DNA of 64,000 nt from an uncultured Pelagibacteraceae bacterium (GTDB taxonomy: Bacteria; Pseudomonadota; Alphaproteobacteria; Pelagibacterales; Pelagibacteraceae), in NCBI GenBank assembly GCA_902515095.1, contig CABXTC010000003.1, positions 1 through 64,000 on the forward strand, given 5' to 3'. Positions 21,542-30,096 of the stretch are shown here, one piece after another. How positions within the stretch are numbered: position 1 is the first letter of the stretch; each line of letters opens with the position of its first letter. The position numbers were made by a program, and so were the translations under genes. The notes beneath the pieces were generated by a model. It saw only the letters and a program-made list of their open reading frames with translations. It did no database searches and was not told where the DNA came from.

Positions 21542-22633
21542 TTATTTTTTAAGCTGTTTATTTCTTTCAACAAAACTCTCAACGTTCTCTGTAAGTACAG
21601 CTTTTTCAACTTGTTCGGGATCTTTAATGTTTTCTAAAGTTCTAGTAATTGATCTAGCATCCTTACCAAAACTATCAACAACCGTCATGGCTTCTTCAAG
21701 TTTTTTTCTTAATTTATAAATATTATCAAAATGACTAGAAAATCTTGTACTAATAGTTTTTAGATGATCATAAATCTCTGTCGCGTGTTTAGAAATTTTC
21801 AGAGACTGAAAGCCCATGTGCAAAGATTGTAAATAAGCTGAAAGGGTATTTGGCCCACAAATTACTATTTTATATTTTTTCATTAATTCTTGAATTAATA
21901 ACTCTTTAGTGCTTGGATCTTGATACTCAGTTAATTCTTTATAAAGACTTTCTGTGGGTGCATACACAATTGCAAAATTTGAAGTTTTAGGTGGAACAAT
22001 ATATTTTTCCATCACACTTTTTGCTTTAGTCTTAAATGCACTTGCTAATTTTGTTCTAGCATCTGCAACTGCTTTCTTATCATCTGCCTCATGCGCATCT
22101 GTAATTGCCTTAAATTTCTCTACTGGAAAATGAGAGTCTACTGGAACCAAAACATCCCCTTGAAGCTTGATTGCAAATTCTACATTCTCGCTAGTATCCT
22201 CTTTCATTTTAACATTTGTCATATATTGAGATGCAGGTAATAAATCTTTAATTAAAGCATCCAAAGAATATTCAGCTAAAGTTCCATACTTTTTAACTCC
22301 CGCTAAAATTTTAGTAATCCCCTCCTGGCTTTGATTTAATAATTTTACTTGTTCGTTAAAATTACCAACCTTCTCATCTACTTTGGTTAGAGCCTCAGTC
22401 ATATCTTTTGTAACCCCAGTTGATAGGGAATTAAATGAAGTAGACATTGAACTTAGAGATGTATTAATTGTAGAATTTAAGCTATCTTTTAATCTTACAA
22501 TTTCAGCATTCAAATTTGCTATTTCATTTGTCTCTTCAGCTCTTTCCCCTTTTTTGGACTTTATGACCAAATACAAAATTGCAAGAGTCGCTCCAAACAA
22601 TAAAATCAAAATTATAAATAAAATTGTGTCCAT
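21542..22633 (-). CDS. rmuC: DNA recombination protein RmuC
   Basis: Membrane-anchored protein of the RmuC family, which limits inversion at short repeats in E. coli. The first 24 residues form a membrane anchor (ILFIILILLFGATLAILYLVI), followed by a coiled coil to about residue 110. The conserved nuclease-like domain then starts (VLVPVDSHFPVEKF, NFAIVYAPTESLY, VICGPNTLSAYLQSL). At 363 residues it is typical. It is first of four minus-strand genes: rmuC, MGME1-like, ExoI-like, trxA. Confidence 0.9.
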   Translation of the reverse strand: MDTILFIILILLFGATLAILYLVIKSKKGERAEETNEIANLNAEIVRLKDSLNSTINTSLSSMSTSFNSLSTGVTKDMTEALTKVDEKVGNFNEQVKLLNQSQEGITKILAGVKKYGTLAEYSLDALIKDLLPASQYMTNVKMKEDTSENVEFAIKLQGDVLVPVDSHFPVEKFKAITDAHEADDKKAVADARTKLASAFKTKAKSVMEKYIVPPKTSNFAIVYAPTESLYKELTEYQDPSTKELLIQELMKKYKIVICGPNTLSAYLQSLHMGFQSLKISKHATEIYDHLKTISTRFSSHFDNIYKLRKKLEEAMTVVDSFGKDARSITRTLENIKDPEQVEKAVLTENVESFVERNKQLKK

Positions 22634-22654
22634 GATTCGTAACTTATATTATAA

Positions 22655-22795
22655 ATGATTTTTATGGAATTATATCTTATTTTGAAAATTATTTTTGGAA
22701 TTGGTTTTCTAATCACCATTTATGCAATTATCCTAAATTTAGATATAATCAAAATTATTCTTGTATATTTTAAAGATAAATTACTTGGAAAGTAG
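22655..22795 (+). CDS. Small single-pass membrane protein (46 residues)
   Basis: A short open frame fills the gap between rmuC and hisG. It starts MIFMELYLILKIIF; an alternative ATG lies 9 bases on. It contains one long hydrophobic stretch, roughly residues 7-38, then ends in a basic tail (FKDKLLGK). It is transcribed away from rmuC and overlaps the hisG stop by 15 bases convergently. I recognise no family. Size, composition and exact fit to the gap suggest a real gene, but AT-rich DNA gives hydrophobic frames by chance. Confidence 0.45.
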   Translation: MIFMELYLILKIIFGIGFLITIYAIILNLDIIKIILVYFKDKLLGK

Positions 22796-23467
22796 TTTCA
22801 CTAAATTTTTTAAACCTTTTTTTTTGATATTTTTTTTTGAGGTAAAAATACAAGCTTGAGATTTTAAGATTTCTCCATCTTTCAAAATACGTAGATTATT
22901 TGCCCTAAGAGTTTCACCTGTAGATGTTATATCAGTAATTAATTCAGCTGAACCAGTAAAAGGATATGCCTCAGTTGCTCCTAAACTATCAACCAATTTA
23001 AATTGTGTAACACCTTTGGAAAATAAAAAGTTTCTAGTTAAATTTGGATACTTGGTTGCAACTCTTAATCTTTTTTTCTTTTTATCTCTAAATTCAAATG
23101 CAATTTCCTCTAGATCAGCTATCGTTTGAACATCAATCCAAGGATCTGGTATAGCTACAACTAAATTAGCGCTTCCAAAATTAAGTTTTTTGACAACATT
23201 TATTTTGTTTTGAATATTAATTTCACTTTCTTTTAATAAATCAAAACCAGAGAAACCAATATCCAAAGAGCCATCTCCTATTCTCTCAATAATTTCTCTC
23301 GCGTGCAAATACAAAATTTTTATATTTGATTTGTTTTTTATTGATCCTATTAAATCTCTTTCCCCTCGTTCAGAAATAAGCTTTAATTTTTTTTTAGTAA
23401 AAATTTTTAAAACATCTTTTCTTAACCGTCCCTTACTTGGTATTCCTATATTTATTAAATTTTTCAT
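22781..23467 (-). CDS. hisG: ATP phosphoribosyltransferase, short form
   Basis: First step of histidine synthesis. At 228 residues it is the short HisG, which lacks the C-terminal regulatory domain and needs HisZ. Motifs: NIGIPSKGRLRKD, GDGSLDIGFSGFDLL, and the PRPP-binding TGSAELITDITSTGETL. It overlaps hisZ by 4 bases, consistent with a HisZ-HisG complex made from one message. It is the last gene of the hisS-hisZ-hisG unit. Confidence 0.95.
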   Translation of the reverse strand: MKNLINIGIPSKGRLRKDVLKIFTKKKLKLISERGERDLIGSIKNKSNIKILYLHAREIIERIGDGSLDIGFSGFDLLKESEINIQNKINVVKKLNFGSANLVVAIPDPWIDVQTIADLEEIAFEFRDKKKKRLRVATKYPNLTRNFLFSKGVTQFKLVDSLGATEAYPFTGSAELITDITSTGETLRANNLRILKDGEILKSQACIFTSKKNIKKKGLKNLVKLLSK

Positions 23468-24522
23468 GATAAATAATTTAAATTAAGAGCGGCTCCGACT
23501 GCTGGTATTTGTTTTTTTGAACCAAGATCGGAGATTAATTTATCAAAACGACCTCCATTACAACAGTTTATAATTTTTGAATTTGATTGGATGTCTATCT
23601 TAAAAACCATCCCAGTATAATATTCAAGTTGTCTACCAAAGGCAGTTGAGAAAACTAAGTTCAATTTTGATATCTTGTTTTTAGATATTGGAAAATATTT
23701 TTGATCAACAACAAGATTAATTCTATTTTTCTTAAAAAATTTGTTTAACTCATTTGCAGCTTTGTTAATTGGGCATTTAATTTTTAAAAATTCTCTAATA
23801 ATTTTTGAAATATTTTTTCCCTTACTTGCTCTCCTTGGGTCCTGAATTTTTTTATCAAATCTCTCTAAAATTTCTTTTATTGTTCTGCTTGCCACAATAG
23901 ATGATTGATTTACTTTTAACATTTTTAAATAACGTTTTTTATCAACCTCAACAATTGTTGGGTCTACGTCAGAATTTGTTTCTAATCTTTTCAATAAATC
24001 ATTAAAATAATCTTCTCTCCAAAAATGTCTTAAAAGTCTTAATTTCCATCTTCTAGGTATATCCAATTTTGAAATAAGAAGATTAAAAATCTCTACATTA
24101 CCGATTGTGAGGGTGCCTTTTGAATATTTTAAATCTTTTATTGATTTAAGTGACGTATTTATTATTTCTTTATCATCATTTTTTTCATCATTTGATCCTA
24201 TGATCTCAAAACCAATTTGATCTCGAATTATAGAGTCTTTTTTATTTTGAGATTTTCTATAAGCCTGTCCACTATAAAATATTTTTTCTTTTCCCTTTAG
24301 ATTATTTTCTAAATACCTAAGACAAGAAGCGATTGTGAGATCAGGTCTCAAACATAATTCATTACCTGTCTGATCTGTAAATGAAAAAATAAATTTTCTA
24401 AAACTCTCACCAGATCTTTGAACTATATGATTTGTCTCAATGACTGAGGGTAATTCAATGTATTTAAATCCTTTAGACTGAACTGATTTAAGGATTTTTT
24501 CAGATAAATTTTTTGATTTCAT
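23464..24522 (-). CDS. hisZ: ATP phosphoribosyltransferase regulatory subunit
   Basis: HisRS paralogue without synthetase activity that activates and feedback-regulates short HisG. It keeps the class II fold with motif-2-like SGQAYRKSQNKKDSIIRDQIGFEIIG and the C-terminal GGRFDKLISDLGS, but lacks a C-terminal anticodon-binding domain. At 352 residues it is typical of alphaproteobacteria. It overlaps hisS by 23 bases and hisG by 4, so all three are translationally coupled. Confidence 0.92.
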   Translation of the reverse strand: MKSKNLSEKILKSVQSKGFKYIELPSVIETNHIVQRSGESFRKFIFSFTDQTGNELCLRPDLTIASCLRYLENNLKGKEKIFYSGQAYRKSQNKKDSIIRDQIGFEIIGSNDEKNDDKEIINTSLKSIKDLKYSKGTLTIGNVEIFNLLISKLDIPRRWKLRLLRHFWREDYFNDLLKRLETNSDVDPTIVEVDKKRYLKMLKVNQSSIVASRTIKEILERFDKKIQDPRRASKGKNISKIIREFLKIKCPINKAANELNKFFKKNRINLVVDQKYFPISKNKISKLNLVFSTAFGRQLEYYTGMVFKIDIQSNSKIINCCNGGRFDKLISDLGSKKQIPAVGAALNLNYLS

Positions 24523-25897
24523 TGATTAAGTTTTCTTTTGGGAATGTTTTTTGATTATTCTCTCCTTTGACCCCAAGTAGATTTTTTAACGTGATTTTGT
24601 TTTCTTTAAATTCATTATCACCACAAATAATTGCAACTGGACATTCTCTTTTATTCGCATAAGTAAGTTGTTTACCAAGATTTTTTTTACTATCCAAAAA
24701 TATTTCAGAATTAATATTACTTTTTCTTAATTCATTCAAAATTTCATAATAATTTTTTAAATATTTTTCATCCATCACACAAACTATAACTGGATTTTGT
24801 AAATCAATTTCTACTTGATCTAATTGCGTCATTGCGAATAGCAGTCTATCAACACCAATACTTACACCTGTTCCTGGAATATCTACACCTTTAAATCTCG
24901 AAATTAATTTATTATACTGTCCACCAGAGCAGATGCTACCAATATCAACTTCTTTACCTTTATTATTTTTTGCTTTAAAATTTAGATTGGTTTCAACACA
25001 GAACCCATCATAATAATCAAGGCCTCTGACTATTGTAAAATTAGTTTTTACTTGATCGAAATAATTTCCAAAATTTAAAACATTGAATAGTTCTTCTAAT
25101 TCTTTAACTCCTTCTTGAGTAAGAGGATTTTTAAAATTTTCTTTAAGTTCTTTTAGATCCTTAACTTTTAAAAAATTTAAAATTTTAAATGTTTGATCAT
25201 CGCTTAAATTAGCTCCTTTTGTTATAGCTCCGCTATTATCTTTTCTCTCTTTTTTTAATAATTCCTCTACACCTTTTAATCCAAAACCAGGTTTATCAAG
25301 TTTATCAATAGCTCTCATTACCTTGGTTTGTTTATTTTCTGGGATTTTAAGATCTTCAATTAAGCCCTGAACAATTTTTCTGTTACTAACATTGATAGTA
25401 AATTGATTTTTTTTTAAACCACAATCTACTAAAGTATTTGAAATAAAATTACATAGCTCCGCATTGGCTTGCGCAGGATTAACATTTCCAACTATATCGC
25501 AATCTGCTTGAGTAAATTCCCTGTATCTGGCGTTTCCAGATTTTTCATTTCTGAAAACATTTTGAATTGCATATCTTTTATATATTGATGGAAGCTCTTG
25601 ATTATTTTGCGCAACAAATCTAGCTAGAGGACTAGATAAATCATATCTTAAAGTGATATTATTTTCACCATCATTAAAAGAGAAAACATCGGACATAGGA
25701 TTACTATTATCCTCCGCAAGAAAGGATCCTATATTTTCACTTATTTCAAATGATGGAGTCTCCAATGGATCAAATCCATATTTAATAAAATTTTTCTCAA
25801 TGACTTTTAGTAGTCTTTTTTTGAGAAGTAATTTTTTATTCCATCTATCTTCAAAACCTGAGGGTAATCCAGGAATTAATTTATTTTCTTTATTCAT
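24500..25897 (-). CDS. hisS: Histidyl-tRNA synthetase
   Basis: Charges tRNA-His. Class II motifs: RYDLSSPLARFVA, motif 2 FRNEKSGNARYREFTQADCDIVG (core RNEKSG and REFTQ), RGLDYYDGFCVE, and motif 3 GVSIGVDRLLFAM. A C-terminal anticodon-binding domain follows (VIVCVMDE onward). The ATG at 25897 (MNKENKLIPGLPSGFEDR) gives 465 residues. The frame upstream runs through the tRNA-like element and is rejected. The start is 4 nt after the CCA of that element, and the only purine-rich candidate ribosome site (AAGG) lies inside its acceptor strand. Confidence 0.93.
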   Translation of the reverse strand: MNKENKLIPGLPSGFEDRWNKKLLLKKRLLKVIEKNFIKYGFDPLETPSFEISENIGSFLAEDNSNPMSDVFSFNDGENNITLRYDLSSPLARFVAQNNQELPSIYKRYAIQNVFRNEKSGNARYREFTQADCDIVGNVNPAQANAELCNFISNTLVDCGLKKNQFTINVSNRKIVQGLIEDLKIPENKQTKVMRAIDKLDKPGFGLKGVEELLKKERKDNSGAITKGANLSDDQTFKILNFLKVKDLKELKENFKNPLTQEGVKELEELFNVLNFGNYFDQVKTNFTIVRGLDYYDGFCVETNLNFKAKNNKGKEVDIGSICSGGQYNKLISRFKGVDIPGTGVSIGVDRLLFAMTQLDQVEIDLQNPVIVCVMDEKYLKNYYEILNELRKSNINSEIFLDSKKNLGKQLTYANKRECPVAIICGDNEFKENKITLKNLLGVKGENNQKTFPKENLINEIKKFI

Positions 25898-25901
25898 TTT
25901 T

Positions 25902-25975
25902 TGGTACCTTGAGTAGGTTACGCTCCTACGACTTCGGATCCACAAACCGACGTGATGCTATTTCACCATCAAGGC
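25902..25975 (-). tRNA. tRNA-His(GUG) or tRNA-His-like element heading the hisS message
   Basis: The minus strand folds into a full cloverleaf. The 7-bp acceptor is GCCTTGA with TCAAGGT, followed by discriminator A and encoded CCA. There is a 4-bp D stem (GTGA/TCAC), an anticodon loop TTGTGGA with anticodon GUG (His), and a perfect 5-bp T stem (GTAGG/CCTAC). No G-1 is encoded (U precedes), and the discriminator is A73, as reported for many alphaproteobacterial tRNA-His. Unusual features: the D loop AATAGCA lacks the G18-G19 pair and the T loop is AGCGTAA rather than TTCRANN. It could be a derived tRNA or a regulatory mimic. Confidence 0.65.
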
Positions 25976-26035
25976 ATATCCTTTTTGTTTTTATATTATT
26001 TTTGGTTTATTTAAAATTATATTATAAAAGATTTA

Positions 26036-26055
26036 ATGCTAGCTTTAGCCAGCAT
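26036..26055 (-). terminator. Terminator hairpin at the end of the His leader ORF
   Basis: On the minus strand, ATGCTGGC pairs with GCTAGCAT across a TAAA loop (8 bp, one G-U). Downstream comes TAAATCTTTT, a short, imperfect U tract. The leader ORF stop codon TAA is the loop itself. It lies about 60 bases before the tRNA-His-like element. It could end transcripts of the upstream glycan genes, or act as an attenuator for hisS. Confidence 0.55.
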
Positions 26056-26143
26056 GGAAATGAGCGTGCACACCTCTATTAGTTCCTCTAAGTCTTACTT
26101 GAGTAGCTAATTTACACAAAATGTTAATCTCATATTTTTTCAT
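26045..26143 (-). CDS. Putative histidine leader peptide (32 residues)
   Basis: Minus-strand ORF starting MKKYEINILCKLATQ and ending GVHAHFHAG before TAA. Three of the last seven codons are His (codons 26, 28 and 30). The stop codon sits in the loop of a terminator-like hairpin, and tRNA-His-like/hisS/hisZ/hisG lie directly downstream. This is the layout of an amino-acid attenuator: a ribosome waiting at the His codons would cover the 5' arm of the hairpin. I recognise no homologous protein. The ribosome site is weak (AAAAGA). Its function is inference from arrangement. Confidence 0.5.
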   Translation of the reverse strand: MKKYEINILCKLATQVRLRGTNRGVHAHFHAG

Positions 26144-26153
26144 GAAGCATCTT

Positions 26154-26202
26154 TTAGACAAAAATTAAAATTATTCAACCCTTAAAAGAAGTATCGTTTT
26201 TC
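26154..26202. repeat. Copy A of a ~50-bp direct repeat flanking the glycan cassette
   Basis: This segment (plus strand TTAGACAAAAATTAAAATTA and onward) is roughly 80% identical by hand alignment to 27754-27800, in the same orientation. The best block includes ATTATTCAACC in both. Copy A lies just 3' of the DUF4422 gene and upstream of the His leader ORF. The copies bracket exactly the two-gene cassette at 26206-27722. Confidence 0.6.
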
Positions 26203-26205
26203 AAA

Positions 26206-27015
26206 TTATAATTCTTCTTTGTTTAAATCGTGGTATATAACTGGAATTTCGTATACTTTTGAATATTTATTAAACCAGTATGCCATAAATCTTTCAGCCA
26301 AAAAAGCATACGTTCTTGTTTCATACCCTCTTAATTCAAAACCAAGAATAGTTTCACATTTTTCCAACCATGGAAATAATGTTTCGTAAAACCTGCCCAT
26401 CAATTCTTTAGATTTACATATAAACATATTGCCGTAATTGAATGAGATATTTTTTCTTACATAAAGATTAAAATCTTCTTTATCGTTTTGACTTAGTAAA
26501 TCTATAGCTTTATCTAAAATACCATTGCCATGAAACATATCAAATTGAAATCTTATACTTCTACCCCTATTAAGGATTGCTCCAGGATTTCTTAGAAATG
26601 CAATTTTTCCATATTTAAGTATTTTTATCAAAGGTATTTGATTTAGGTAAATATGTTTACCAAGTATTACATCGTATTTTTCCCAGCTAGTAGGAATTTT
26701 TTTTAAAATCTTTTGATTAATGTCTAAAGATTCATCTGAGTTACTAAGTTCATTTTTCCAAAATCTTCTATATCCACAAAAACCAATCCACTTATCTTTT
26801 TGAATACTATTAAGCTTATTTTTCCAAAGCCAGTAATGAAAAGTAAATTCACCATAAAACTTATTTTTAGAGCTGATATTAATGCCGCTATCATCCCTAA
26901 TCCATCCACTAGAAGATATGTTAGCCCCCAGTCCGACTGGTGTATAATTTAATTTTTTAACCTTATCTAAAAGTTTATTGTGAATACAAATACAAAAAAT
27001 TTCTAGGTTATTCAC
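26206..27015 (-). CDS. DUF4422-family glycosyltransferase
   Basis: Predicted sugar transferase for a surface polysaccharide. DUF4422 features are visible: the NYTPVGLGAN region, GEFTFHYWLWKN and the WIGFCGYRRFW motif. The C-terminal third (GNMFICKSKELMGRFYETLF) is also typical. 269 residues, cytoplasmic, no membrane segment. It overlaps the upstream methyltransferase by 4 bases. Donor and acceptor cannot be told. The pair sits between similar repeats inside an otherwise housekeeping region, suggesting acquisition. Confidence 0.8.
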   Translation of the reverse strand: MNNLEIFCICIHNKLLDKVKKLNYTPVGLGANISSSGWIRDDSGINISSKNKFYGEFTFHYWLWKNKLNSIQKDKWIGFCGYRRFWKNELSNSDESLDINQKILKKIPTSWEKYDVILGKHIYLNQIPLIKILKYGKIAFLRNPGAILNRGRSIRFQFDMFHGNGILDKAIDLLSQNDKEDFNLYVRKNISFNYGNMFICKSKELMGRFYETLFPWLEKCETILGFELRGYETRTYAFLAERFMAYWFNKYSKVYEIPVIYHDLNKEEL

Positions 27016-27722
27016 TTCTTTATTTTATCAATTTTTTTTCTTATCCTATACCATAAACGAAAACCCCAATTCTTATGGTCTTCTGACTTATTAGAAAAGT
27101 TATAGAGTTTTTTGTTGTGGTCAATTCCATTTAAGAATTTTTTGTATTTATAAATAATTCTATCATTAAAAGAACTTAAATATTTTTCATCTTTTAAAGT
27201 TACTGACACGAAGTCATTCCAACCACATTCAAGGAATTGATTTGATACGTAAGATTCTAATAAGATTGGATTGAAACTATTTTTTTTAGCCCAATTGATT
27301 AATGCATTACCACTATCAGGGTAAAATCTCCAACAATCTGTGGGCCATCTATGAAAATCACCATTAGAAGGCACATTAAAGTAGAAAACCCCATTGGGTT
27401 TTAAAATTCTAAGTATTTCCAAATAAGTTAGCCAGAAAAATTCAACATGTTCAAATACTGAGGTACTTATAATTACATCATAAGCTGCGTCAGGAATCTC
27501 TTTAAATGAGTAGGGATCTTCTAAAACAATATCCACATTATTCCCTTTTTCAATGTCTACTCCTGTATATTTGTAATTTATATTCATTTTATCTAGTAAA
27601 ACTTTTGCTCCAATGTGGTCTGATAATGATTGGCTACCAAAGTCTAATATTTTTGGATTATCAAAATTTTTCAAATAAATGGAAAAAAACTTTTCTAAAT
27701 TAAGTATTGCGGATGAATGCAT
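27012..27722 (-). CDS. Class I SAM-dependent methyltransferase
   Basis: Predicted methyltransferase of 236 residues, probably acting on a glycan. The SAM-binding motif I region is ILDFGSQSLSDHIGAK, followed by YTGVDIEKG, DVIISTSVFEHVE and GVFYFNVPSNGDFHRWPTD. The last part is common in methyltransferases found in polysaccharide clusters. It is first of the two-gene cassette and overlaps the DUF4422 gene by 4 bases. The substrate is unknown. Confidence 0.8.
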   Translation of the reverse strand: MHSSAILNLEKFFSIYLKNFDNPKILDFGSQSLSDHIGAKVLLDKMNINYKYTGVDIEKGNNVDIVLEDPYSFKEIPDAAYDVIISTSVFEHVEFFWLTYLEILRILKPNGVFYFNVPSNGDFHRWPTDCWRFYPDSGNALINWAKKNSFNPILLESYVSNQFLECGWNDFVSVTLKDEKYLSSFNDRIIYKYKKFLNGIDHNKKLYNFSNKSEDHKNWGFRLWYRIRKKIDKIKK

Positions 27723-27753
27723 TTTGGTTTTTAAAAACTTTGAATATTAGCTT

Positions 27754-27800
27754 AGACAAAAAATTAAATTATTCAACCTTTAAAAAAAGGACGTTTCCAA
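27754..27800. repeat. Copy B of the ~50-bp direct repeat
   Basis: It reads TTAGACAAAAAATTAAATTA at its left end and matches copy A (26154-26202) with a few substitutions and one or two single-base gaps. It lies between the 3' end of cspA and the start of the methyltransferase. On the minus strand both copies follow the end of one gene and precede the next transcription unit. They could therefore be duplicated promoter or terminator DNA left by an insertion. Confidence 0.6.
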
Positions 27801-27834
27801 TTTTTTTTTAAGCTCCATTATTAAATATTTTTGA

Positions 27835-28047
27835 TTAATCTAATTTTTTTAAATTAACTGCAGAAGGTCCTTTTGGACCATCTTCTAAAGTAAATTCTAG
27901 TTTATCTCCTTCATTTAGAAATCTCATACCTGCAGCTTTAACTGCACTTGCATGAACAAAAGCATCTTTTTCTTTATCATCTCTCTCTATAAATCCATAA
28001 CCTTTTTTTCCATTAAACCACTTTACTTTTCCTTGAATTGTACTCAT
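27835..28047 (-). CDS. cspA: Cold-shock-family RNA-binding protein
   Basis: Single cold-shock domain of 70 residues. RNP1 is present as KGYGFIER and RNP2 as DAFVHAS. It starts [16 protein letters not shown], the usual CspA opening. Such proteins melt mRNA structure and need not be cold-induced. It lies 72 bases after tRNA-Phe on the same strand. The letter given to the symbol is nominal, since family members cannot be told apart here. Confidence 0.93.
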
Positions 28048-28119
28048 TTTTTACTCGTCCTTTTATTTTTTAATATAGGTAAAGGTAATTTCTTTTGCGT
28101 TAATTTCAAGATATTTTGG

Positions 28120-28194
28120 TGGTGCCTCGGGAAGGATTCGCACCTCCGACACAAGCCTTTTCAGGGCTCTGCTCTACTCCTGAGCTACCGAGGC
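28120..28194 (-). tRNA. tRNA-Phe (GAA)
   Basis: Minus-strand cloverleaf with perfect 7-bp acceptor (GCCTCGG/CCGAGGC), discriminator A and encoded CCA. It has D arm GCTC-AGGAGTA-GAGC and anticodon loop CTGAAAA (anticodon GAA). The T stem is GGAGG/CCTTC with T loop TGCGAAT. Position 55 is G where nearly all tRNAs have U (pseudouridine). The 5' end is 5 bases after the infA stop, so it is probably excised from an infA-tRNA-cspA transcript. Confidence 0.93.
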
Positions 28195-28199
28195 AAAAA

Positions 28200-28415
28200 T
28201 TAACCTCTAAAGATTATTCTACCTTTAGTAAGGTCATAAGGTGTCATTTCCACAGTCACATTATCACCCTGTAATACTCGAATTCTATTCTTTCTCAACT
28301 TGCCTGCAGTATGTGCTGTTACTACATGACCATTCTCTAATTGGACTCTGAACATGGCATTAGGCAACAAGTCAGTTACTTTACCTTTAAATTCAAGTAA
28401 ATCTTGTTTTGACAA
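28200..28415 (-). CDS. infA: Translation initiation factor IF-1
   Basis: Seventy-one-residue OB-fold factor that binds the 30S A site. It is nearly textbook: [20 protein letters not shown], then [17 protein letters not shown] and [10 protein letters not shown]. It follows hisD by 2 bases and precedes tRNA-Phe by 5 bases, continuing the murA-DUF2948-hisD-infA order common in alphaproteobacteria. Confidence 0.97.
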
Positions 28416-28417
28416 AT

Positions 28418-29701
28418 TTATTTTCTCCTAATTCTTTTTTTTACAGATTGAGCATGTCCAGCCAACCCTTCATAATTTGCAAGAGTTATAACTGATGGTC
28501 CAAGCTTTTCAATACCCTTTTTTGATAAGTTTATATATGAAATTCTTTTATAAAATTCATTAACACTTATACCACTTGAAAATTTAGCTGATCCATTGGT
28601 TGGTAATATATGGTTGGATCCAACATTATAATCAGTCATTGCCATTACAGCATATTTTCCTAAACAAACGGATCCGGCATTTTTTATTTTTGGAATAAAT
28701 GACTTATAATCTTTTACATTTAATTCCAAATGTTCAGGAGCAATTTTATTTACAATATCAATTATTTTTTTATCTGAATTAACTTCAATTAAAATTCCAT
28801 TGTTAAATAAACTTTTTTTTGCAATAGCTGTTCTTGGAATATTTTTTAGTTGTTTAATGACTTCTACCCTTGTTTTTTTTATCAAATCTTTACTTTTTGA
28901 AATTAATATACACTGAGCGAGTACATCATGCTCTGCTTGGCCGATAAGATCACTCGCTATCCAACCTGGATTTGAAAATCTATCACCAACAATTGTTACC
29001 TCTGATGGTCCAGCTATCATTCCCTCAACACCTACATCTCCAAAAACTTCTTTTTTAGCAGCTGCTACATACATGTTACCAGGGCCTACAACTTTATTAA
29101 CTTTTTTAATTTTTTTTGTACCATACGCGACAGCTGCAATCGCTGAAGGGCCGCCTACAGAATAAATTTCCTTAATACCACATAGTTTGGCTGCATATAA
29201 TACTGCTGGATTTTGTTTTCCTTTATATCCTGGATTAATCATAATAATTCTTTTTACACCAGCGACTATTGCTGGGACTGCATTCATTAAAACACTTGAA
29301 GGATAAGATGCTGATGAACCAGGCACATAAATTGCGACTGACTCGATTGGTAAATACCTGTATTCAAGTTTATTTTGAAGTTTATCAGTGTAAGAAATAT
29401 TTTTAAATTTTTGCAAAGAATGAAACTTGTAAATTCTCGAATAAGCAACATCAATAGCTTTTTTTACTTTTGGATTTAAAGATTTTATAGATCTTGCTAT
29501 ATGATCAGAGCTAGGTTTAATTACTCTATTTCGGTTAAATCTTTTTTCATATTTTAATAACGCTTTATCTCCATTTTTTTTTACATCATTTATTATTTTT
29601 ATAACTGACACAGAGTTCATGTGAACTTTTGTCTTTCTTCTTAATAATAAATTATCTAATTCTTTATTAAAATTTCTTTTTTTGCTATTTAATATTTTCA
29701 T
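28418..29701 (-). CDS. hisD: Histidinol dehydrogenase
   Basis: Oxidises histidinol to histidine in two NAD-dependent steps. Recognisable segments: [50 protein letters not shown], and [12 protein letters not shown] (zinc-binding Gln and His), then APEHLELNV and [17 protein letters not shown]. At 427 residues the length is normal. It is not next to hisG/hisZ, which lie 4 kb downstream. It follows the DUF2948 gene by 2 bases. Confidence 0.97.
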
Positions 29702-29703
29702 TA

Positions 29704-30096
29704 TTACTTAATCTCATTTTGATCTTCTAACCTTACTTCAATTGCTTCAGTAGTCAAAACAATGTGGCTATTATTACTAAAAATTAAATTTATTTCATAG
29801 TCATCTTTATTTTTCAAATAATCGATGCCTATTAAATCTAAAATTTCTTCAGTGTTTGACTGGTCAATATTTTTGGACTTAACTCTGTCAACAAAATCAA
29901 ACCTGCAAATACTATTTATTTTCTTATCTATTTCATTTGACTCAACCTTAATTCTTTCGATAGATAATAAAAAAACTTTGCTAGAGGCAAGATACTTAAT
30001 ATTTTCAACTTTTGTTTTGGAGCCCGATATACAAGCTGAAATCATTTGCAATCCTTCTTGATCATTTGCAATTATCTTTGCTAAATATTTATTCAC
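29704..30096 (-). CDS. DUF2948 family protein
   Basis: Conserved alphaproteobacterial protein of unknown function, 130 residues. It starts LAKIIANDQEGLQMISACIS, as the family does, and has CRFDFVDRVKS in the middle. No membrane segment or catalytic motif is seen. Its fixed place between murA and hisD is the main support for the family name. It shares one base with the murA stop and lies 2 bases before hisD. Confidence 0.82.
   Translation of the reverse strand: MNKYLAKIIANDQEGLQMISACISGSKTKVENIKYLASSKVFLLSIERIKVESNEIDKKINSICRFDFVDRVKSKNIDQSNTEEILDLIGIDYLKNKDDYEINLIFSNNSHIVLTTEAIEVRLEDQNEIK

Follow-up and report, generated by a model that had tools for sequence, protein, structure and literature searches.

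Upstream of hisS in the window, which is the whole analysed stretch of 64,000 nucleotides from an uncultured Pelagibacteraceae bacterium (contig CABXTC010000003.1), a short minus-strand open reading frame (ORF) with a histidine-rich end runs into a hairpin, and comparison of sequences makes it rather likely that the two form a ribosome-sensing, attenuator-like histidine leader in front of the sole tRNA-His gene, hisS, hisZ and hisG. A short ORF with cognate codons that precedes the genes for the respective amino acid or its tRNA synthetase is what characterizes an attenuator, and this is the arrangement found here. The comparison of relatives brings out the ORF, its His-rich end, the distance from the promoter to the ATG, the hairpin together with its position, and the operon with its only tRNA-His gene, and it suggests a self-sensing control circuit for charged tRNA-His whose last step does not resemble the textbook transcription terminator.

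The leader and its operon

The leader ORF occupies positions 26143-26045 of the minus strand (32 codons) and encodes MKKYEINILCKLATQVRLRGTNRGVHAHFHAG, with the C-terminal end HAHFHAG. As an earlier note on this DNA had described, codons 26 (26068-26066), 28 (26062-26060) and 30 (26056-26054) specify histidine, and the UAA stop codon lies inside the loop of an 8-bp hairpin, denoted here stem 2 (26036..26055, minus strand), which reads AUGCUGGC-UAAA-GCUAGCAU from 26055 to 26036. The tail past stem 2 begins UAAAUCUUUUAU, with 4 U among its first 8 nucleotides, and a conserved AT-rich block, TATAATATAATTTTAAAT (26009..26026, minus strand), is apparent in the alignment of 63 representatives. On the other side of the ORF lies the promoter P1 (26151..26178, minus strand), which consists of the -35 element TTGAAT (26178-26173), a 16-nt spacer and the -10 element TAAAAG (26156-26151).

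An element that starts 60 nt past the hairpin and is 74 nt long, the encoded CCA included, matches the Rfam tRNA model with 48 bits and represents a tRNA-His with the anticodon GUG (25902..25975, minus strand); the hisS ATG is located 4 nt past the CCA (25902-25897). The genes hisS (24500..25897; histidyl-tRNA synthetase, TIGR00442, 343.6 bits), hisZ (23464..24522; ATP phosphoribosyltransferase regulatory subunit, NF008953, 402.3 bits) and hisG (22781..23467; ATP phosphoribosyltransferase, TIGR00070, 183.8 bits) follow on the minus strand, each with a score over the respective cut-off, so the succession of a tRNA-like element and hisS-hisZ-hisG that had been read from the letters of the sequence is borne out by these matches. 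The order hisS-hisZ-hisG is kept in 78 of 80 loci, and the remaining two reach the end of the contig; judging by the titles of their named records, the 80 relatives belong to Pelagibacteraceae or Pelagibacter, i.e. to SAR11. Given the 4-nt gap between the CCA and hisS, 3' processing of the tRNA could yield a hisS mRNA with almost no leader. A DUF4422 protein and a methyltransferase-domain protein are encoded at 26206-27722 of the window, between the cold-shock gene and the leader; in one relative (L061), the leader comes directly after the cold-shock gene.

Conservation of the leader in SAR11

The comparison included 190 regions upstream of hisS, each 300 nt or longer (183 from family f1 and 7 from family f2; L195, with 50 nt upstream, was dropped); because the source sets overlap in origin, these were reduced to 66 representatives less than 85% alike, 63 of f1 and 3 of f2. 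For the clade of the window (clade A), 78 of the 83 distinct rows were aligned, leaving out L042, L056, L152, L185 and L191. A finder that locates a His codon by a hairpin selects for histidine and for an open frame, so its yield (186 of the 190 regions, with 0 stops in 1473 codons) is not independent evidence, and a shuffle test of the hairpin and a count of promoter-defined upstream ORFs (uORFs) served as controls for this bias. When uORFs were defined by promoter spacing, i.e. an ATG preceded at 34-36 nt by a TTG and a length of 8-60 codons, with neither histidine nor the hairpin used, such a uORF was present in 185 of the 190 regions, and 181 contained exactly one. Among the 59 representatives with exactly one uORF, histidine accounts for 169 of the 706 residues (24%) in the last 12 amino acids versus 14 of 798 (1.8%) elsewhere, and all 59 have His within the last 12 codons. 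The leaders of clade C retain only 1-2 His codons, which counts against the histidine-leader reading.

In 64 of the 66 representatives, a TTG precedes the leader ATG by 33-36 nt, and in 46 by exactly 35 nt, in a count where the choice of the start prefers ATGs having that spacing. No Shine-Dalgarno-like motif was detected before the leader ATG in the representatives tested. Since the ATG comes about 35 nt after the TTG box, the leader ORF is probably leaderless: given the usual promoter geometry, transcription would start at the ATG itself.

The leader ATG is present in all 78 aligned clade-A relatives, and the gaps inside the ORF in these sequences, which represent few events, are only 3 or 6 nt long. 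In 35 disjoint clade-A pairs, the differences are spread evenly over the three codon positions (78, 101 and 89), and the synonymous fraction is 0.244 versus 0.263 expected, so that coding outside the His-rich end gains no support and protein-level selection on the clade-A leader peptide is rejected. By this comparison, the body of the clade-A leader is free at the amino-acid level and the start, the frame and the His-rich end are kept, a pattern to be expected if the codons of the leader matter and its product does not. Of the features that the earlier note had proposed to look for in a SAR11 alignment, the frame, the His-rich end and the hairpin thus proved to be conserved, but a bias at synonymous sites did not appear.

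In the second family, f2, for which 24 loci were available (7 earlier ones and 17 added; 4 f2 loci that the first finder had missed were recovered here), a search that required His identified in all 24 a leader of 11 codons, 3-4 of them His, and a hairpin immediately past the stop. The ATG of these leaders, of which MFKFKHHHYHI is one example, is preceded by a TTG at 35-36 nt. About 5 nt past the f2 hairpin, there is a conserved run of 4-5 C, before any U run or A/T-rich stretch (L210-L216, L323-L339). Judging from these alignments, the leader is conserved in SAR11, in both families examined.

Within the loci examined, the leader appears to belong to SAR11 hisS. No similar leader was found before hisB (0 of 6 loci) or trpE (0 of 7) in six SAR11 genomes, nor a P1-type leader before 8 leuA-like loci. 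The hisB and trpE result counts for the histidine-leader reading, but hisB is also needed for histidine, and its position without such a leader counts against it. Beyond SAR11, hisS was matched in 43 other alphaproteobacterial genomes, 28 of which gave loci, and ARAGORN identified a tRNA-His before hisS in none of these 28. One of them (L250) contains a His-rich ORF with a GTG start, which we take as chance.

The hairpin at the last His codon

In the shuffle test, hairpins that begin between -2 and +1 nt relative to the last His codon beat dinucleotide shuffles with p<0.05 in 63 of 63 representatives and with p<0.01 in 57 (p=0.004 in the window). The 171-nt region as a whole shows no unusual folding (z -1.26), and only the local hairpin stands out. 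The stem sequences vary by clade (GCUGGC/GCUAGC, AUAGCC/GGCUAU, AUGGCU/AGCCAU, GCUAAGC/GCUUAGC) and the position at the last His codon is constant; with differing stem sequences occupying the same place, the interpretation of the stem as a DNA operator is disfavoured. Clade A, like 8 of the 9 clade-C representatives, has a stop codon that starts inside the loop; in all 13 representatives of clade B and in 13 of the 16 others, the stop is found at the 3' hairpin end or past it. The outermost stem-2 pair of the window is missing in 56 of the 78 clade-A sequences.

In clade A, pair counts in the 78 sequences also point to an upstream stem 1 (26086..26103, minus strand), the window's copy of which contains a bulge. 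One of its pairs occurs as C-G in 40 sequences, U-A in 35, U-G in 2 and A-U in 1, but this single pair carries 36 of the 43 two-sided cells and may reflect few events; another pair is unpaired in 28 of 78. The covariation of stems 1 and 2 in clade A is above that in all 500 shuffles, which ignore relatedness; RNAalifold alone predicts stem 2 only. Stem 1 ends 30 alignment columns before the stem-2 region, and this spacer, about one ribosome footprint long, is ungapped in 78 of 78 sequences.

The tRNA-His

The element at 25975-25902 has the anticodon GUG, an encoded CCA, A73 and no G-1, along with an unusual T-loop, AGCGUAA, and was missed by ARAGORN. In the portion of PMC3937112 consulted, A73 without G-1 in tRNA-His is reported for seven of eight SAR11 strains. 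In the genome of the window (G000; assembly 92.6% complete), 29 of the 30 tRNA matches are typed to other amino acids, which leaves the element as the remaining one. The single-contig relative G063 has 33 tRNA matches, of which 31 are typed, covering the 19 other amino acids and none of them His; of the remaining two, one is a partial, untyped match whose loop, inspected by eye, reads CAT, and the other is the element linked to hisS, which differs from that of the window by one nucleotide. A UGUGG anticodon loop precedes hisS in all 183 f1 loci; ARAGORN called a tRNA-His in 114 of these and missed 69, of which 65 have the T-loop AGCGUAA. Thus, the element is most likely a working tRNA-His and the only one found in G000 and G063, a firmer status than the "tRNA-His-like" of the earlier note, and, being the only one, it is not plausibly a tRNA mimic for autoregulation by HisRS, a possibility we reject. 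A phage origin of the odd tRNA was also considered, with no match.

The tRNA-His varies strongly among SAR11 relatives: the 183 loci contain 40 different 3' stretches, some of which are distinguished solely by what follows the CCA (window 25975-25902, L036, L045, L061, L079, L109, L191). One tRNA-His type is common to clade-A and clade-C leaders (L036, L045), which hints at tRNA replacement. No tRNA-His was seen between the leader and hisS in the 24 f2 loci; in G064, from the other SAR11 family, tRNA-His adjoins tRNA-Phe about 1.4 kb upstream of hisS, the two being 5 nt apart (L299 3702-3859). In five further loci (L192, L193, L196-L198), the leader and the hairpin lie between tRNA-Phe and tRNA-His.

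How the leader could act

From these features, we infer a transcription start, translation of the leader, stalling and a response of the downstream genes that would be connected as follows. P1 would start transcription at the AUG of the short leaderless ORF. When charged tRNA-His is lacking, the ribosome would pause at the His codons, just upstream of and partly in the hairpin; an unpaused ribosome would open the hairpin and come to its end inside or shortly past it. Where the ribosome stands would decide whether the hairpin exists during the passage of RNA polymerase and, through this, the share of transcripts that reach tRNA-His-hisS-hisZ-hisG, the candidate outputs being termination (by a weak hairpin or by Rho), pausing or RNA processing. 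Starvation is expected to raise expression because these genes make charged tRNA-His and histidine; HisG is responsible for the committed step of histidine synthesis.

A ribosome covers about 30 nt of mRNA. By the predicted geometry, with the A site at the first His codon, the ribosome would fit between stems 1 and 2 and leave both of them formed; at the second or third His codon, it would cover the 5' arm of stem 2; and at the stop codon, it would also cover the hairpin. The proposed covering of the 5' arm by a stall at codons 26-30 therefore fits codons 28 and 30 but, judging from the positions and the usual footprint, not codon 26, at which the ribosome should end at the base of the stem. 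Since a ribosome at the stop codon would block the hairpin as well, sterics alone give no sign and, by themselves, no read-through on starvation.

This geometry bears directly on the reading of the earlier note, in which the hairpin is an intrinsic terminator that acts except when a stall at codons 26-30 brings the ribosome over its 5' arm; we regard this as possible but doubtful. The hairpin does sit at the His codons, and codons that overlap a terminator have a precedent in the part of PMC1262725 consulted. However, the stem should remain free when the ribosome stalls at the first His codon and would be blocked by a ribosome at the stop, so that a simple terminator does not lead to the sign that is expected. 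In the 8 nt past the stem, the mean number of T is 3.4 in clade A (n=25), 4.6 in clade B (n=13), 5.9 in clade C (n=9) and 3.4 in the others (n=16), against a background of 34%, or 2.7 of 8. The weak U tract, against which the earlier note itself had cautioned, is thus seen in the clade of the window, and the T-richer tails of clades B and C favour termination. The terminator score is above 0 in only 1 of the 63 representatives, with a mean of -37, but the 3' hairpins of the cold-shock gene (csp), used as controls, are not decisive here: in the first control, poor hairpins were chosen in many loci and the mean score was -41, with 4 of 40 printed scores above 0, and in the second, based on stability alone, a hairpin of -8 kcal/mol or better was available in 11 of 53 csp 3' regions, with a mean of 4.7 T of 8, versus 3.6 for the 40 leader hairpins of this stability. 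In clade A, the csp hairpins have 5.6 T (n=5) versus 3.4 for all 25 leaders, but this control is small and partly overlapping. The second control weakens the argument against a terminator. Overall, the sequence hints that stem 2 is a poor intrinsic terminator; what is supported of the proposal is the conserved histidine leader ORF with its hairpin, and the terminator signature is weak in clade A. A mutually exclusive antiterminator was not found in the consensus folds of clades A, B and C, which contain stem 2 and the tRNA and, in B and C, an additional 5'-3' helix. The rival pairing of UUAGC (codons 12-13) with GCUAA that had been suggested is rejected, with UUAGC present in 17 of 78 relatives and at differing codons.

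The 5'-3' helix leads to an alternative that we deem unlikely, namely, that the hairpin, together with a helix between the start codon and the 3' segment in clade B and others, acts post-transcriptionally, by setting initiation at the leader, RNA stability or cleavage between the leader and the tRNA. The consensus folds of clades B and C allow pairing between the initial nucleotides of the leader and the segment directly past the hairpin. The 5' ends and 3' segments of the same sequence pair better than swapped ones, with a permutation p of 0.0002 over all 63 representatives, 0.0004 in clade B and 0.015 in the mixed group, and two controls of this swap test are flat; the difference is not significant in clade A (p 0.39) or in clade C (p 0.40, the sequences being much alike). 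Against shuffles, the z of the helix is -1.5 for clades B and C, -1.0 for the mixed group and -0.15 for clade A, three controls being near 0 overall, and in 10 of the 13 clade-B representatives, the ATG is part of the best helix. In single sequences, p<0.05 is reached in only 9 of 63, which speaks against this alternative; the three controls yield 2, 1 and 1 of 63. The 5'-3' helix is thus moderately supported outside the clade of the window and unsupported within clade A, where a start-codon helix is rejected.

Finally, it is rather improbable that the leader is a separate transcript, with a second promoter, P2, driving tRNA-His-hisS and the His codons having no effect on these genes. The -10-like hexamer TAATAT (25993..25998, minus strand) is a possible element of such a promoter for the tRNA, and a hexamer of this type (TA[AGT][TGA]AT) is present between the hairpin and the tRNA in 62 of 63 representatives; moreover, the tRNA is essential, and its constant, basal supply makes P2 plausible. 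Nevertheless, a -35 TTG 21-25 nt upstream of the hexamer was found in 0 of 62, -10-like hexamers are common in AT-rich sequence such as this and so represent weak evidence, and the retention of a His-rich end and a hairpin before hisS in both families would be odd in the absence of a link. The caveat of a second promoter, raised in the earlier note, stands.

Returning to the ribosome-sensing histidine leader, we would put forward, as conceivable rather than probable, a more specific version in which the tRNA controls its own gene via the ribosome: the only SAR11 tRNA-His would lie behind a leaderless stalling leader whose effector hairpin is not an intrinsic terminator and would work through pausing, Rho or RNA processing.

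Relation to known leaders

The leader of the gammaproteobacterial his operon likewise has a His-rich ORF before histidine genes, but the SAR11 leader differs from it in being apparently leaderless, in having tRNA-His inside the operon, and in that no terminator/antiterminator pair was found. The Rfam model His_leader (RF00514) gave no match with E<=1 in the window at 22000-30000, nor with E<=5 in 20 relatives; a T-box match in Rfam was absent as well from the same part of the window and from the 20 relatives, and the tRNA-like element is itself the tRNA-His. In attenuation of the pyrBI type, the leader ORF enters the hairpin, and the position of the ribosome alone blocks it; the first of these is shared with the leader described here and the second would be shared too, whereas the signal there is UTP and here would be a codon-specific stall.

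Codon-sensing leaders are already known, including ones before hisS-family genes and ones that overlap a hairpin, judging from the excerpts of PMC2965389 and PMC1262725, respectively. The His leader peptides of Bacilli, with a His-codon ORF before hisS* and hisZ, were found by their premature terminators, and the excerpt of PMC2965389 mentions no tRNA gene. In the actinobacterial ilvB leaders, as the excerpt of PMC1262725 describes them, the regulatory codons overlap the terminator hairpin, so the statement of the earlier note that no attenuator of such a form had been described cannot be upheld; these leaders differ in employing branched-chain codons and in the poly-U that follows the hairpin, and the mode of regulation is unclear there too. 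An alphaproteobacterial leader with cognate codons before an aminoacyl-tRNA synthetase gene is uORFC-8-2, located before cysS in Rhodobacterales, but it is specific for Cys and has a U run at the 3' end in all cases, and no tRNA gene is mentioned in the consulted part of PMC8632094. The mycobacterial leaderless polycysteine ORFs (Canestrari 2020, cited via the part of PMC9094748 at hand) are similarly leaderless short-ORF amino-acid sensors, for Cys instead of His. For the SAR11 strain HIMB5, the portion of PMC6429828 consulted gives 11 uORFs predicted to control the next gene, with identities in a supplementary table; the words "hisS" and "histidine" have 0 occurrences in its main text, and the SAR11 his leader may be among these 11. 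Neither word occurs in the available part of an earlier SAR11 RNA survey (PMC2704228).

Among the literature matches listed, the SAR11 hisS leader is not named in titles or abstract starts, and no class of codon-sensing leaders with a non-terminator hairpin as the effector was met. What appears to be new here is a leaderless ORF with a single hairpin of weak U tract, ahead of the only tRNA-His gene found.

Implications

SAR11 are among the most abundant bacterial groups of the ocean and possess few regulators. Since the leader is present in both of the SAR11 families examined, these bacteria appear to sense their supply of histidine through translation. The weak U tract raises the question of how a codon-sensing leader acts without a strong intrinsic terminator, and, because stem 1 in clade A and the 5'-3' helix in clade B and others vary by clade, the parts can be told apart with natural variants. 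Should the only tRNA-His gene indeed obey its own charging sensor, this would be a direct feedback loop on tRNA supply.
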